From Oscillospiraceae bacterium (GTDB lineage Bacteria > Bacillota > Clostridia > Oscillospirales > Oscillospiraceae), in contig JAFTGG010000004.1 of assembly GCA_017458025.1 (NCBI GenBank), positions 1 to 24,435 on the forward strand: a stretch of DNA of 24,435 nucleotides, written 5' to 3'. The notes beneath the pieces were generated by a model. That model searched no databases, had not been told where the DNA came from, and was given only the letters and a program-made list of their open reading frames with translations. Position 1 is the first letter of the stretch; each line of letters opens with the position of its first letter. Of the stretch, positions 8,399 to 12,807 are shown one piece after another. Position numbers and translations under genes: made by a program.

Positions 8399-11125
8399 AT
8401 GGGTCTCTTTACCAAGATATTCGGCACCTACAGCGAGCGCGAACTCAAGAGCATCTACCCCATCGTCGACAAGATCGAGGCGATGGCGGACGAGTATGCC
8501 GCGATGAGCGACGCGCAGCTACAGGCCAAAACGCCGGAATTTAAGGAGCGCCTCGCGAACGGCGAAACGCTCGACGACATTCTGCCCGAGGCGTTCGCCA
8601 CCGTCCGCGAGGCGGCGAAGCGCGTCATCGGGCTGTATCCCTACCGCGTGCAGCTCATCGGCGGCATCGTGCTCCATCAGGGCCGCATCGCCGAGATGAA
8701 GACCGGCGAAGGCAAAACGCTCGTCGCGGTGCTGCCGTCGTACCTCAACGCGCTCACGGGCGACGGCGTGCACATCGTCACGGTCAACGACTACCTTGCC
8801 AAACGCGACAGCGAGTGGATGGGCAAGATCCACCGCTTCCTCGGCCTGAGCGTAGGCCTGATCGTCCACGACCTCGACAGCGAGCAGCGCCGCGCCGCCT
8901 ATGCCGCCGATATCACCTACGGCACGAACAACGAGATGGGCTTCGACTATCTGCGCGACAACATGGCGATCTTCGCCAGCGAGCTCGTCCAGCGCGGCCA
9001 CGCCTTCGTCATCGTGGACGAGGTGGACTCGATCCTCATCGACGAGGCGCGCACGCCGCTGATCATCTCCGGCATGGGCGAAAAGTCCACGGAGATGTAT
9101 TCCCGCACCGAGAATCTCGTCGCCCGCTTCCGCAAGAAGGTCATCGCGGAAACCGACGAGAAGGAGGAAGAGGACGTCAATGAGCAGGCGGACTACATCG
9201 TCGACGAGAAAGCCAAGACCGCGACGCTGACCGCACGCGGCGTCAAAAAGGTCGAGGAGTATTTCCAGCTCGAAAACCTCTCCGATCCCGAAAACTCCAC
9301 CATCGCGCACCACGTCAATCAGGCGATCAAGGCGCACGGCGTCATGAAGCGCGACATCGACTACGTCGTCAAGGACGGCGAGATCATCATCGTCGACGAG
9401 TTCACGGGCCGTCTGATGTTCGGCCGCCGTTACAGCGAGGGCCTGCATCAGGCGATCGAGGCGAAAGAAGGCGTCACCGTCGCGCGCGAGAGCAAGACGC
9501 TCGCGACCATCACGTTCCAGAACTATTTCCGCCTGTACAGGAAGCTCTCCGGCATGACCGGTACGGCGCTCACCGAGGAAGAGGAATTTGGCGCCATCTA
9601 CAAGCTCGACATCATCGAGATCCCGACCAACCGCCCGCTGGCGCGTATCGACGACCCCGACGTGGTCTACAAGACCGAGGCGGCGAAGTACCGCGCGGTC
9701 ATCGCGCAGGTCAAGGAGTGCCACGCCAAGGGCCAGCCGGTGCTGGTCGGCACGGTGTCCATTGAGAAGAACGAAAAGCTTTCGTACCTCCTTCAGCGCG
9801 AGGGCATCAAGCACAACCTCTTAAACGCGAAGAACCACGAAAAGGAAGCGGAGATCGTCGCGCAGGCGGGCAAGCTGGGCGCGGTGACGGTCGCGACGAA
9901 CATGGCGGGCCGCGGCACCGATATCATGCTCGGCGGCAACGCCGAATATATGGCGCGCAACGACCTGCGCAAGGCGGGGCTCAGCGACGAGCTCATCGCC
10001 GAGGCGACCGGCTACGCGGATACGGATAACCAAGAGGTGCTGGACGCGCGGAAGATGTTTGCCGACGCGCTCGCCAAGCACCGCGATGAGATCGCGGGCG
10101 AGGCGGACAAGGTGCGCGAGGCGGGCGGCTTGTTCATCATCGGCACCGAGCGCCACGACTCCCGCCGCATCGACAATCAGTTGCGCGGCCGCGCGGGCCG
10201 TCAGGGCGACCCCGGCGAGACGCGCTTCTACCTCTCGCTTGACGACGACCTGATGCGCCTGTTCGGCGGCGAGCGCGTCACGGCGCTGATGGACCGCCTC
10301 GATATGGACGAGGACACGCCCATTGACGCAAGAATGCTCTCGAAGTCCATCGAGAACGCGCAGACGAGCGTCGAGTCCCGCAACTTCCAATCGCGTAAAT
10401 CCGTCCTTGAGTATGACGACGTGATGAACAAGCAGCGCGAGATCATCTACGGTCAGCGCAAGCAGGTGCTCGACGGCCTCGACATCAAGGAGACCGTCTT
10501 CGGCTTCATCCGCGGCGGCGTCGAGAACAATGTGACCATCGCGCTCGGCGAGCACGGCAAGGTGACGGCGGAAACCGCCGCCGAAGCGCTCAAGTCCTGC
10601 GAGGGCATGTACTTCCCGCGCGGCGCGGTGGACGTCAACACGCTCGCGAACCTCTCCGCCGAGGAGCTGACCGACCGGCTGGTCGAGGCGTCCGAGCGCT
10701 TCTACAACGCCAAGGAGGAGGCCTTGACCTCCCCCGTCATGCGCGAGCTGGAGCGCGTCGTCATGCTGCGCGTGGTCGACGAGTATTGGATGGACCACAT
10801 CGACGCGATGCAGGAGCTGCGCCAGGGCGTGCGGCTTCAGGCATACGGCAACAAGAACCCCGTGGACGAATACAAGCGCATCTCGCTCGACATGTTCGAG
10901 GAGATGGTCGCCGCGATCCAGAACGACACGGTGCGCCGCATTTTCTCCGCGCGCGTCAAGACGGAGGCCGAGGTCAAGCGCGAGCGCGTGGCCGAGGGCA
11001 TCAACGCCACGACGGCGGGCGACGGCACGGTCAAGAAGCAGCCGCGCAAGGTCAAGAAGATCGGGCGCAACGACCCGTGCCCCTGCGGGAGCGGCAAGAA
11101 GTATAAGCAGTGCTGCGGGAGATGA
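8399..11125 (+). CDS. secA: Protein translocase ATPase SecA
   Basis: A 908-residue ATPase that drives preproteins through SecYEG at the membrane. The start is the ATG at 8399 after AAAGGAAG; the product begins [16 protein letters not shown] as in the family. Visible landmarks: Walker A region [15 protein letters not shown]-like [17 protein letters not shown], preprotein-crosslinking region, second helicase half with NMAGRGTDI and [11 protein letters not shown], helical scaffold and wing, and a C-terminal zinc finger [13 protein letters not shown]. The full domain set and length are typical of the main SecA. It has its own promoter. No U-rich intrinsic terminator follows it; instead the left inverted repeat with a 20-bp hairpin begins about 5 nt after the stop and may shape the 3' end. 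Confidence 0.98.
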
Positions 11126-11129
11126 TGGG

Positions 11130-11338
11130 GAACGAACCTGAAACCGTTTCTTTCCTTCTTGCGTGAAGGAAGGAAATGGTTTCAGACTTCCGTAGAAAGG
11201 AAGCCTTGCCGCATGTCGGCGCGGTGTGCCGGAATTTCCGACGCTCCCTCGTCGATACGCTCTGCCTCGATTTCCGCTCAGCCGCTCCTTTGGGCACCCG
11301 GCGCGACGCTACGCCTCGTTCGCGGCAGCGCCTGCGGC
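11130..11338 (+). repeat. Left copy of a ~210-bp inverted repeat with a 20-bp hairpin
   Basis: It matches, in reverse complement and with substitutions and small indels, the block at 11763-11975. It opens with a hairpin, arms 11139-11158 and 11165-11184, with two G-U wobbles if read on the plus strand and a six-base loop. Conserved blocks follow: ACTTCCGTAG, GTCGATACG, CTCGATTTCCGCT, GCCGCTCC, GCCTCGTTCG. The last 30 bases encode the C-terminal tail of the 80-residue protein on the opposite strand. Frames in the two copies are not maintained, so it is not a coding repeat. Confidence 0.85.
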
Positions 11339-11551
11339 TTCTTCTGGTTCTTCGGAGGCTTCCATTGTTGCGCTCATGCGTTCTTCAATTCGGCTCATAT
11401 GCTGCCATACGAGGTGCAGCGCCACCGAATACCGCTTCAAATTCAAATTCTCGGATTTCGACGCCAGATATAGGATATAAAGCAGATCCAGTGCGTCGTT
11501 GTAGTCCTTGTGCTCCCGCTTCAGCTCGTACATGTCTACGCTCGTGTTCAT
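11309..11551 (-). CDS. Hypothetical 80-residue helical protein downstream of a structured RNA
   Basis: I do not recognise this protein. It begins MNTSVDMYELKREHKDYN at the ATG at 11551, 8 nt after GGAGG, the best ribosome binding site in this island; a longer in-frame extension upstream runs through a terminator hairpin and is unlikely. Residues about 10-62 look like two or three amphipathic helices (DLLYILYLASKSENLNLKRY, ALHLVWQHMSRIEERM). The last 15 residues are a low-complexity Glu/Ala tail encoded partly inside the left inverted repeat. There is no signal peptide, membrane segment or Cys motif. It is convergent with secA. Upstream on the same strand are a promoter, a rod-like RNA and a terminator. 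Function unknown; an RNA-paired role is only suggested by context. Confidence 0.72.
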   Translation of the reverse strand: MNTSVDMYELKREHKDYNDALDLLYILYLASKSENLNLKRYSVALHLVWQHMSRIEERMSATMEASEEPEEAAGAAANEA

Positions 11552-11569
11552 GTTCCCTACCTCCACAAT

Positions 11570-11597
11570 AAAAAATGGCGCGCCCGAGGGCGCGCCA
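11570..11597 (-). terminator. Strong intrinsic terminator before the 80-residue gene
   Basis: Stem TGGCGCGCCC/GGGCGCGCCA (11597-11588 and 11585-11576) is followed on the minus strand by six U (11575-11570). It ends about 6 nt before the ribosome binding site of the small gene, so most transcripts from the promoter at 11724-11752 should stop here and only read-through would express the protein. Confidence 0.85.
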
Positions 11598-11717
11598 CGA
11601 AAAACGCGCCCCAAGCCGCCAAGCTAGTTAAATATCTCAAGCAAGAGGATTTAACAGGGGCGCATTTTTACCAAAGCAAAAATCCCCTGCTTGAAATATT
11701 ATTTAACTAACTTGGCA
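11570..11717 (-). ncRNA. Candidate rod-shaped small RNA, about 148 nt, unclassified
   Basis: A sigma-A promoter predicts a start at about 11717, one base before a 99-base imperfect palindrome (11716-11618). Folded on the minus strand it gives a 17-bp closing stem with one G-U pair (11716-11700 with 11634-11618), a 3-base bulge, a 9-bp stem, a 1-base bulge and an 8-bp stem under a large apical loop. A competing apical fold pairs GGGGATTTTT with AAAAAT plus CCCC. A short linker leads to the terminator. It lacks the wide central bubble of 6S RNA and is not like SRP RNA or tmRNA. A MITE-like palindrome is the main alternative, but the coincidence of start site, rod and terminator favours an RNA gene. 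Confidence 0.6.
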
Positions 11718-11723
11718 TATAAA

Positions 11724-11752
11724 ATCATATCACTTGCAAAGCGTGCTGTCAA
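11724..11752 (-). promoter_or_regulatory. Strong sigma-A promoter for the rod RNA and small protein
   Basis: On the minus strand TTGACA (11752-11747), 17 nt, TATGAT (11729-11724). The -35 is a perfect consensus and the spacing ideal. It points away from the right inverted repeat and into the rod RNA. Confidence 0.8.
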
Positions 11753-11762
11753 GCAAGGATTT

Positions 11763-11975
11763 CTCGCAGGCCTGCCTCGAACGAGGCGACGCGCGCCGCT
11801 GAGCGCCCAACGGAGCGGCAAGCGGAAATCGAGACGCGGCGTATCGACAAGGAGCGCCGGAAACATCGGCACCATCTACCAAACCCGCAAACGCGTCTTT
11901 TTCTCTACGGAAGTTTGAAACCATTTCTCTCTTTCCACAAGCGGAAAGAGAGAAACGGTTTCAAGTTCGTCTCCC
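11763..11975 (-). repeat. Right copy of the ~210-bp inverted repeat
   Basis: Inverted, diverged copy of 11130-11338. Its hairpin has arms at 11916-11936 and 11943-11963. Relative to the left copy the inner stem bases differ on both arms and still pair, and the one imperfect pair is a G-U wobble when read on the minus strand, matching the wobble position of the left copy read on the plus strand. The outer end lies about 5 nt from the AAGGAGG ribosome binding site of pgeF, so it also forms the pgeF leader on the other strand. Confidence 0.85.
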
Positions 11976-11988
11976 ACAAGGAGGTTTT

Positions 11989-12807
11989 ATGTCCTTTACT
12001 GAGCACAACGTCAATGGCCTGATCTATGACACCGCCGATGGATTAAGTTCCGCCGGCGGCATTCGCCATGCCTTCACCACGCGGCTCGGCGGCGTCAGCC
12101 CCGCGCCGTTCGATTCGCTAAACTTCTTCGAGCGCAACGGCGATACGAAAGAAAACGTAATTGAGAATTACAAGCTGCTCGGGCAGGCGACCGGCCTTAA
12201 CATGGCCCGTGCCGTCGGCTGCCGGCAGATACACAGCGACCTCGTGCGCTCCATTTACGCCGAGGACGCGGGAAAAATCCTTTACGACGAGCGCCCCTAC
12301 GACGCCGACGCGATGCTCACCGACGTGCCGGACGTTCCGCTCGTCGCGTACAGCGCCGACTGCTGCACCATTCTGCTTTACGACCCCACCTGCCGCTGCG
12401 TGGGCGCGATACACGCCGGCTGGAAAGGCACGGCGCTTGGCGTCGCGCTCAAGGCGCTCATCGCGATGATGAGCGCCTACGGCGCGGACCCCATGACGAT
12501 CCACGCCGCCATCGGTCCGTCCATCGGCGCGTGCTGCTTTGAGACCGACAGCGACGTGCCGGACGCCATTCGCGAGGAGCTCAGCGAAAGCGCCGACCGC
12601 TTCATCGAACGGCGCGGCGGCAAATACCACGTCGACCTCAAGCAGATCAACCGCCTGTGGCTGCTGCGCGGCGGGCTCGACCCGCGCAACGTCGAAGTGC
12701 ACGGCGACTGCACCGCCTGCCGTCTCGACCGCTATTGGTCGCACCGCAGGCTCGGCGCGCGCCGCGGCGGTCAGATCGCCGTCATCGCGCTGGAGGGCGG
12801 AGCATGA
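11989..12807 (+). CDS. pgeF: PgeF/YfiH-family multicopper-oxidase-fold protein (purine nucleoside phosphorylase/laccase-like)
   Basis: A 272-residue protein of the YfiH/LACC1 (DUF152) family. Members are reported to have purine nucleoside phosphorylase or adenosine deaminase activity, and the E. coli protein clears misincorporated L-Ser from peptidoglycan precursors. Visible family motifs: HAFTTRLGGVS near the N-terminus, HSDLV, SADCCTILLYDP, AIHAGWKGT, IGPSIGACCFE, and the C-terminal GDCTACR. The metal-binding Cys and His residues of the family are present. The ATG at 11989 has an AAGGAGG ribosome binding site. Its stop overlaps the next gene by four bases (ATGA), so the two are translationally coupled. 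I found no convincing promoter in the right repeat just upstream. Confidence 0.92.
   Translation: MSFTEHNVNGLIYDTADGLSSAGGIRHAFTTRLGGVSPAPFDSLNFFERNGDTKENVIENYKLLGQATGLNMARAVGCRQIHSDLVRSIYAEDAGKILYDERPYDADAMLTDVPDVPLVAYSADCCTILLYDPTCRCVGAIHAGWKGTALGVALKALIAMMSAYGADPMTIHAAIGPSIGACCFETDSDVPDAIREELSESADRFIERRGGKYHVDLKQINRLWLLRGGLDPRNVEVHGDCTACRLDRYWSHRRLGARRGGQIAVIALEGGA

Follow-up and report, generated by a model that had tools for sequence, protein, structure and literature searches.

What is encoded by a promoter, a rod-like RNA, a terminator, and a small gene that follow one another between secA and pgeF in an Oscillospiraceae genome? The initial annotation of the window (the whole 24,435-nt stretch of DNA analyzed here, contig JAFTGG010000004.1) noted that this order is found in type III toxin-antitoxin loci and proposed either a new RNA-protein pair or an RNA gene lying by chance in front of a small gene.

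The secA-pgeF cassette

All five elements, i.e., the promoter, rod RNA, terminator, GGAGG, and 80-aa open reading frame (ORF), are present on the minus strand at the positions given by the annotation. They are listed below together with the elements discussed in the following sections.

11724..11752, minus strand: promoter TTGACA-N17-TATGAT with an extended −10 element (11 of 12 consensus matches, TG before the −10)
11570..11717, minus strand: candidate attenuator RNA of 148 nt comprising a hinged rod, a tail, and a terminator (models R1 and R2; fold)
11703..11717, minus strand: 5′ strand of basal helix P1, its first base being the predicted transcription start (fold; family pair counts)
11700..11702, minus strand: 5′-side AUA bulge separating P1 from P2, the proposed hinge (fold; conservation in alignment A5)
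11657..11669, minus strand: apical strand A of the rod, AAAAAUGCGCCCC (pairing test; alignment pair counts)
11617..11631, minus strand: 3′ strand of P1 (fold; alignment pair counts)
11600..11612, minus strand: strand B, GGGGCGCGUUUUU, just 3′ of the rod, with A or the 5′ arm of the terminator as possible partner (own-versus-swapped test; pair counts)
11575..11598, minus strand: intrinsic terminator stem-loop of 10 pairs; its 5′ arm and loop are referred to as T
11575-11570, minus strand: T6 tract of the terminator
11560..11564, minus strand: Shine-Dalgarno sequence GGAGG of the small gene, at a position typical of the family
11309..11551, minus strand: small gene, 80 aa, ATG at 11551; putative cargo of the window copy
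11126..11328, no strand: left arm of an imperfect inverted repeat, overlapping the 3′ end of the small gene
11772..11976, no strand: right arm of the imperfect inverted repeat

The promoter (11752-11724) is the sole promoter-like site in the 11100-12000 region, where shuffled sequences contain 0.6 such sites on average. The 148-nt RNA (11717-11570) folds with an energy of −74.2 kcal/mol (z = −8.4), which none of 200 shuffles equaled; the z score of a 161-nt piece was −7.4. A search of positions 10900-12200 found no direct repeat of 14 nt or longer inside 11570-11717, in line with the earlier remark that the RNA has no tandem repeats. A structured RNA with its own promoter, followed by a terminator and a gene, is supported, and the gene is probably reached by read-through.

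The cassette is flanked by the arms of the inverted repeat, whose four blocks are complementary at 79 to 85%. Together they form an 851-bp stretch (11126-11976) between secA and pgeF; the bounding repeats terminate in palindromes and have further copies elsewhere in the genome. This stretch is absent from the junction in three of seven congeneric loci, where 7 nt (L218), 4 nt (L221), and 1 nt (L222) lie between the stop codon of secA and the start of pgeF. About 200 nt separate the two genes in L217, a different 1.25-kb stretch with a related repeat is found between them in L219, and secA was not found in the stretch examined around pgeF in L220 and L223. This comparison of congeners suggests that the junction is variable and that the cassette may have been gained there. 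A dispersed repeat of ~150 to 200 bp with a palindromic end (GAAACCGTTTCTC...GAGAAACGGTTTC) flanks different single-gene stretches in the same genome and in a congener (window 11126-11328 and 11772-11976; L032 2-703; L219 1018-1083). In L032, the gene between the repeats reads as csaA-like. This repeat may be the trace of a process that moves cassettes, although no transposase is visible.

Distribution of the RNA, the small protein, and downstream genes

Other copies of the RNA in the same genome were first found by DNA search. A covariance model built from six copies (R1) detected eight sense-strand copies in this genome, the seven besides the window copy at E values of 4.4e-6 or better. The other copies inspected have a similar promoter, the same terminator, and a rod whose stem sequences differ yet still pair; C85, C83, and C281 precede a related 74- to 78-aa protein and C63 a different small protein. 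Among 300 genomes of the taxonomic family, R1 detected the RNA in 66 at an E value of 0.01 (in 8 of these, all matches were weaker than 1e-4) and in 58 at 1e-4. The 66 genomes contain at least 122 matches, some of them weak. A second model (R2), built from 61 sequences, retains 19 pairs and so searches mainly by sequence; at 1e-4, it found the RNA in 99 of 391 genomes of the class, representing 57 of 223 genera and 22 families. Since 10 candidates per genome were scored in the 300-genome set and 7 in the 391-genome set, copy numbers are lower bounds. At least 120 stretches matched in a motif scan of GTDB genomes, and the titles of the 80 loci listed from it were Clostridia, Oscillospiraceae, Ruminococcaceae, or similar, with a few assigned to Bacillota only. 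For the comparisons below, 124 hits (107 + 17) were collected, from which L107 (cut at the 5′ end), a cut second hit in L116, and an antisense hit in L057 were dropped, leaving a family set of 121 RNAs.

At the gathering thresholds of Rfam 15, no match was found in the whole window, and 12 family loci gave three tRNAs only. Below threshold, the matches were mostly to microRNA and other hairpin models (best E value in the window copy, 0.00045), with mir-3938 scoring best at 28.8 bits against a cutoff of 94; homology to an Rfam family was rejected on these grounds. Exact pattern matches in viral contigs numbered zero, and a search of plasmids with one family member as a query gave no match. The same query revealed RNA-like sequences in two unannotated fecal phage contigs, MT837627.1 (2204-2384) and MT835845.1 (2170-2242). 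A phage or plasmid origin was rejected. The RNA represents a large, apparently uncatalogued family.

The 80-aa protein has a much narrower distribution. Sequence-based searches assigned it to no Pfam, PADLOC, NCBIfam, or PHROGs family. A search of a large protein collection returned at least three relatives besides the protein itself and missed three paralogues encoded in the same genome. A profile of the protein matched in 2 of the 300 genomes, namely, its own and G080. The RNA is located upstream of all five genomic copies of this protein family (P0002-P0004 are outside this count). In the window's genome, a short ORF follows each of the eight RNA copies (one ORF is cut at a contig end); these ORFs are of two kinds with no detectable homology. 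The second kind, a small helical protein family (LYKKLYFGLFGKVEDA...), is found behind the RNA at L050, L051, L052, L053, and L069, four members being encoded in the window's genome. Its homology to the window protein family was rejected, with an hhalign probability of 0.1% (families A7 and A6, respectively). The proposal of a dedicated RNA-protein pair is not borne out, since the RNA is found in 66 of 300 genomes, the protein in 2, and the downstream genes are mostly unrelated. Occurrence of the RNA in many genomes without the protein is the very pattern that the initial annotation had named as speaking against such a pair.

To estimate how often the RNA directly precedes a gene, we considered the 113 copies followed by 200 nt or more of sequence. 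In 64 of these, a Shine-Dalgarno sequence is present and an ORF of 45 aa or more begins no farther than 60 nt from the terminator, at a median distance of 21 nt. Four controls gave 1 to 5%: 1 of 117 for divergent ORFs counted from the 5′ end, 3 of 116 for divergent ORFs beyond the promoter, 232 of 5951 random positions, and 5 of 108 other terminator-like sites. Looser rules gave 96 of 121 as an upper figure, which includes some contig-end stubs and doubtful frames; even by these rules, no Shine-Dalgarno sequence and ORF were recognized behind 25 of the 121 RNAs. The RNA therefore occupies a leader position, on the same strand as the gene and directly 5′ of it, as riboswitches and attenuators do. 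Since there is little room for another promoter, read-through into the genes is likely. The second suggestion of the annotation, chance adjacency of an RNA gene and a small gene, comes closer to these observations than its main idea, but the frequency of gene-preceding copies compared to the controls argues against happenstance.

We then scanned 88 downstream ORFs, truncated at 380 aa, with Pfam; ORFs shorter than 45 aa and four more members of the window protein family were dropped from this set. The matches were to BspA-type leucine-rich repeats (10), SHOCT (4), zinc ribbon (3), AMP-binding (2), and SLH (2), along with single matches to VanZ, TM2, DUF4230, DUF4236, and others. By reading, many more of the downstream genes encode either lipoproteins whose signal is of the LSLxACG type or small proteins that are Cys-rich or helical. 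Defense genes were considered as the cargo and rejected, as four PADLOC models matched one member each. At least one match was obtained for 107 PHROGs families, mostly through shared repeats or as single matches, and for 123 NCBIfam families; neither collection named a function common to the 88 ORFs. The downstream genes share no pathway that would name a ligand. One small Cys-rich protein (CLGNG..CCCDECD..CFP) recurs behind the RNA at L063, L090, L098, and L158, although its frame in L158 looks broken.

Several loci contain tandem copies. L100 carries four, separated by 46 to 57 nt, and L067 two, with promoter-like sequence before each copy; in the tandem pairs at L090 and L098, the first copy lacks a recognizable promoter. 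The four RNAs of L100 (6628-7438, minus strand) alternate between two promoter types and are followed by a SLOG/DprA-like gene. Neighboring RNA pairs were also observed in the 391-genome set, e.g., in G556:C80 and G552:C35. Since a pure leader needs no tandem arrangement, such arrays, like the copies without a gene, are compatible with a role of the free RNA.

Conserved anatomy of the rod and the two partners of strand B

The position of the promoter relative to the RNA is strongly constrained. An extended −10 element, TGnTAnnnT, precedes 95 of the 121 RNAs and ends exactly 5 nt before the first nucleotide of the RNA in 89 of them. A −35-like TTG (or TTTACA) at a spacing of 17 is present in 84 of 121. 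Random windows, used as a control for the promoter pattern, gave 34 of 3000.

In single-sequence folds, the RNA begins with basal helix P1, most often 12 to 17 bp long, beyond which lie an asymmetric 5′-side bulge with a conserved AUA, P2, and an apical hairpin. On the 3′ side below the apical hairpin, 13 to 18 nt are commonly unpaired, and the A-rich strand located there is strand A. Strand B, GGAG..UGCGUUUUU, directly follows P1 and is itself followed by the terminator. In the window copy, AAAAAUGCGCCCC (11669-11657) is complementary to GGGGCGCGUUUUU (11612-11600) over 13 bp, including one G-U pair. A longer subtype of 198 to 228 nt with an extra insertion in the rod accounts for 20 of the 121 RNAs (L086, L090, L091, L097, L098, L101, L105, L108, L109, L110, L115, L117, L122, L130, L135, L140, L150, L152, L158, and L160).

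Base pairs were counted in alignment A5, which consists of 61 rows hand-picked from 84 diverse RNAs of at most 172 nt; the 20 RNAs of 198 to 228 nt are outside all pair counts, and the 23 rows outside A5 are mostly low-scoring or divergent, with a few high-scoring ones (e.g., L048 and L061). P1 is paired in 99.5% of cells, with double changes at 9 of the 10 counted pairs, and the terminator in 98.4%, with double changes at 7 of 9 pairs. Six pairs of the apical hairpin as drawn are paired in 74.4% of cells, and P2 and the hinge are taken from the single-sequence folds. RNAalifold applied to A5 kept P1 and the terminator only. Sequence outside the stems is also conserved, and the AUA bulge is at least 90% conserved. 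No K-turn was seen at this bulge by inspection. A T-box, suggested by a conserved UGGU, was rejected, since UGGU reads as one side of a hairpin whose opposite side co-changes in A5.

The ability of strand B to pair with either A or T was assessed by comparing own and swapped partners. Anchors of A and B were recognizable in 113 of the 121 RNAs, and 112 entered the test. For A:B, the mean energy was −12.28 kcal/mol with own partners and −9.90 kcal/mol with swapped ones; for B:T, the corresponding values were −13.76 and −11.39 kcal/mol. In neither case did any of 2000 permutations reach the own-partner value. Control pairings had no own-partner effect (880 of 2000 permutations for A with T and 888 of 2000 for an upstream strand with B). 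The effect is limited in size: for the median RNA, 18% of strands from other RNAs pair better than its own in A:B and B:T, compared to 1% in P1.

In A5, the two segments of A:B are paired in 99.1 and 90.5% of cells, with double changes at 5 of 13 pairs; conservation of the inner part (columns 66-74 with 145-153) is partly built in by the search pattern, which fixes GTAAAAAYGCA and TGYGTTTTTCG and recovered 32 of the 61 rows, and the AAAAA:UUUUU pairs are invariant and hence uninformative. The CUCC:GGAG pairs (columns 77-80 with 138-141), P1, and most of B:T are outside this search pattern. B:T is paired in 95.5% of cells, with double changes at 6 of 10 pairs. Whole-structure measures on A5 were reached by none of 500 shuffles, a type of test that is inflated by sequence relatedness, and were far above those of slid versions. 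A:B and B:T do covary, though modestly, and the swapped-partner and slid controls lead us to regard both pairings as real. Because they share strand B and both covary, A:B and B:T are predicted to form mutually exclusive structures, one of which would block the terminator.

Minimum-energy folds are divided between the predicted outcomes. In the window copy, the terminator is absent and strand B is paired with the terminator 5′ arm; B:T is also formed in C85, whose centroid structure contains the terminator, and the terminator is formed in C83 and G080. Such differences would be expected of a switch near balance, with the qualification that folds of this kind cannot contain a pseudoknot.

A candidate attenuator, its alternatives, and known systems

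Overall, the best reading of these results is a new orphan class of attenuators. Comparative sequence data make it likely that the RNA is a cis-acting transcription-attenuation element with a riboswitch-like layout that controls variable accessory genes, here a gene for an 80-aa protein; jointly with this, the protein is likely a cargo of the switch and not the partner of the RNA. The promoter, P1, the terminator, the covarying A:B and B:T complementarities, and the gene order come from sequence comparison. From them, we infer that the two pairings would compete during transcription, the direction in which the switch would work, the bending of the rod, and the setting of the choice by a signal.

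According to this model, transcription would start at the base of P1 and the rod would fold in the order P1, AUA bulge, P2, strand A, and apical hairpin, with strand B emerging next and facing two mutually exclusive partners. In the OFF state, A would capture B, the terminator would form, and transcription would stop before the gene. In the ON state, A would be unavailable, B would pair with T, the terminator would be blocked, and the polymerase would read into the gene, reaching its Shine-Dalgarno sequence just past the U-tract. The choice would be set by a signal, which could be a small molecule, an ion, or a protein. Strand A is ~30 bp away from B along the rod and the linker between P1 and B is short, so A:B pairing with a straight rod looks sterically hard, and a bend at AUA or partial opening of the rod seems to be needed. 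Both strands are on the 3′ side, opposite the bulge; a bend there would bring the apex back to the base and A to B, making the capture possible.

More tentatively, and as a conjecture that may well prove too broad, we propose an abundant class of signal-responsive RNAs in which the rod folds back at the AUA hinge and the apical strand clasps the terminator-blocking strand. Many families of Clostridia would use such an RNA as a portable head, combining promoter and switch, for accessory and surface genes that are rapidly exchanged, and tandem arrays would also supply free RNA. It would respond to a second messenger, ion, or protein that has so far been linked to no RNA of this shape.

The strongest competitor of the attenuator is a multicopy trans-acting small RNA, in which case the terminated ~150-nt RNA would be the main product and downstream genes would be expressed by constitutive leakage. 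Most copies do have their own promoter and terminator, several copies are present per genome, and in arrays such as that of L100, the last copy alone precedes a gene. A plain small RNA terminator, however, needs no antiterminator, while the B:T pairing is conserved and covaries, and a Shine-Dalgarno sequence and a start codon are found at a typical distance of 21 nt. We consider this explanation unlikely.

LoaP, put, and EAR are systems of processive antitermination, in which a promoter-proximal structured RNA is associated with read-through of terminators. A put-like or EAR-like element acting on RNA polymerase, and allowing it to pass terminators starting with the local one, would resemble our RNA in these two features, and the RNA is indeed rod-like, begins at the predicted transcription start, and is located directly before a terminator. 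Yet a local switch between the exclusive A:B and B:T pairings can itself explain read-through without modification of the polymerase. Among the 391 genomes, 62 score above the LoaP cutoff and 99 carry the RNA, with an overlap of 0 (Fisher p 3.6e-9), which led us to reject LoaP as a partner; the exclusion is probably phylogenetic. An element of the put or EAR kind thus appears improbable.

A MITE-like repeat or DNA palindrome without RNA function, which the initial annotation had also raised, is very improbable: the window copy does lie in a stretch bounded by genome-recurrent inverted repeats, but the RNA has fixed promoter spacing and a mostly fixed orientation to its promoter and downstream gene, it is not placed regardless of genes (same-strand starts behind 64 of 113 copies against 1 of 117 divergent), the A:B and B:T pairings are not arms of the main palindrome, and conservation extends outside the stems.

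Least credible of all is a type III toxin-antitoxin pair, despite the matching gene order, the possible pseudoknot, and the presence of the RNA upstream of all five genomic copies of the protein family; it was rejected on co-occurrence, repeats, and protein family. Characterized systems of this type (ToxIN, CptIN, and TenpIN) share with our locus, according to PMC5086642, a single promoter, a pseudoknotted RNA, a Rho-independent terminator, and a downstream gene, and one promoter and a predicted Rho-independent terminator between RNA and gene are found here as well. Their antitoxin RNA consists of several short tandem repeats (PMC5086642), whereas the RNA described here has no direct repeat of 14 nt or longer and is common to unrelated genes. 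The cognate pairing of one RNA with one protein is contradicted by the 66 versus 2 genomes, and Pfam, PADLOC, NCBIfam, and PHROGs searches with the sequence of the 80-aa protein revealed no endoribonuclease of the ToxN, CptN, or TenpN kind. If the attenuator reading is right, the order of promoter, structured RNA, terminator, and small ORF alone is not a toxin-antitoxin signature.

Literature searches, whose scope did not extend to the tables of PMC8040213, found no published description of the RNA. That study of human microbiomes reports 508 candidate RNAs located no more than 25 bp upstream of a gene (PMC8040213). Our RNA occupies the same kind of place and may be among them; the terms Faecalibacterium, Ruminococc, Oscillospir, tandem, and lipoprotein are absent from its main text.

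If the attenuator model is true, about one in four sampled genomes of the class (99 of 391) carries a transcription switch that no Rfam 15 family matches, often in several copies, where it fronts adhesin-like surface proteins, lipoproteins, and small accessory proteins. It would offer a handle on the control of accessory and surface genes in mostly uncultured gut bacteria, and the question of which signal it answers to could be tested directly.

Known riboswitches such as M-box, preQ1, and SAM-II combine pseudoknots with terminator/antiterminator platforms. The attenuator proposed here resembles them in that one strand would be shared by an aptamer-side pairing and an antiterminator, followed by an intrinsic terminator and a gene. 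In contrast to these riboswitches, it scores below the Rfam 15 gathering thresholds, forms a long rod from the predicted transcription start, and is found, in several or tandem copies per genome, before genes of no common pathway.
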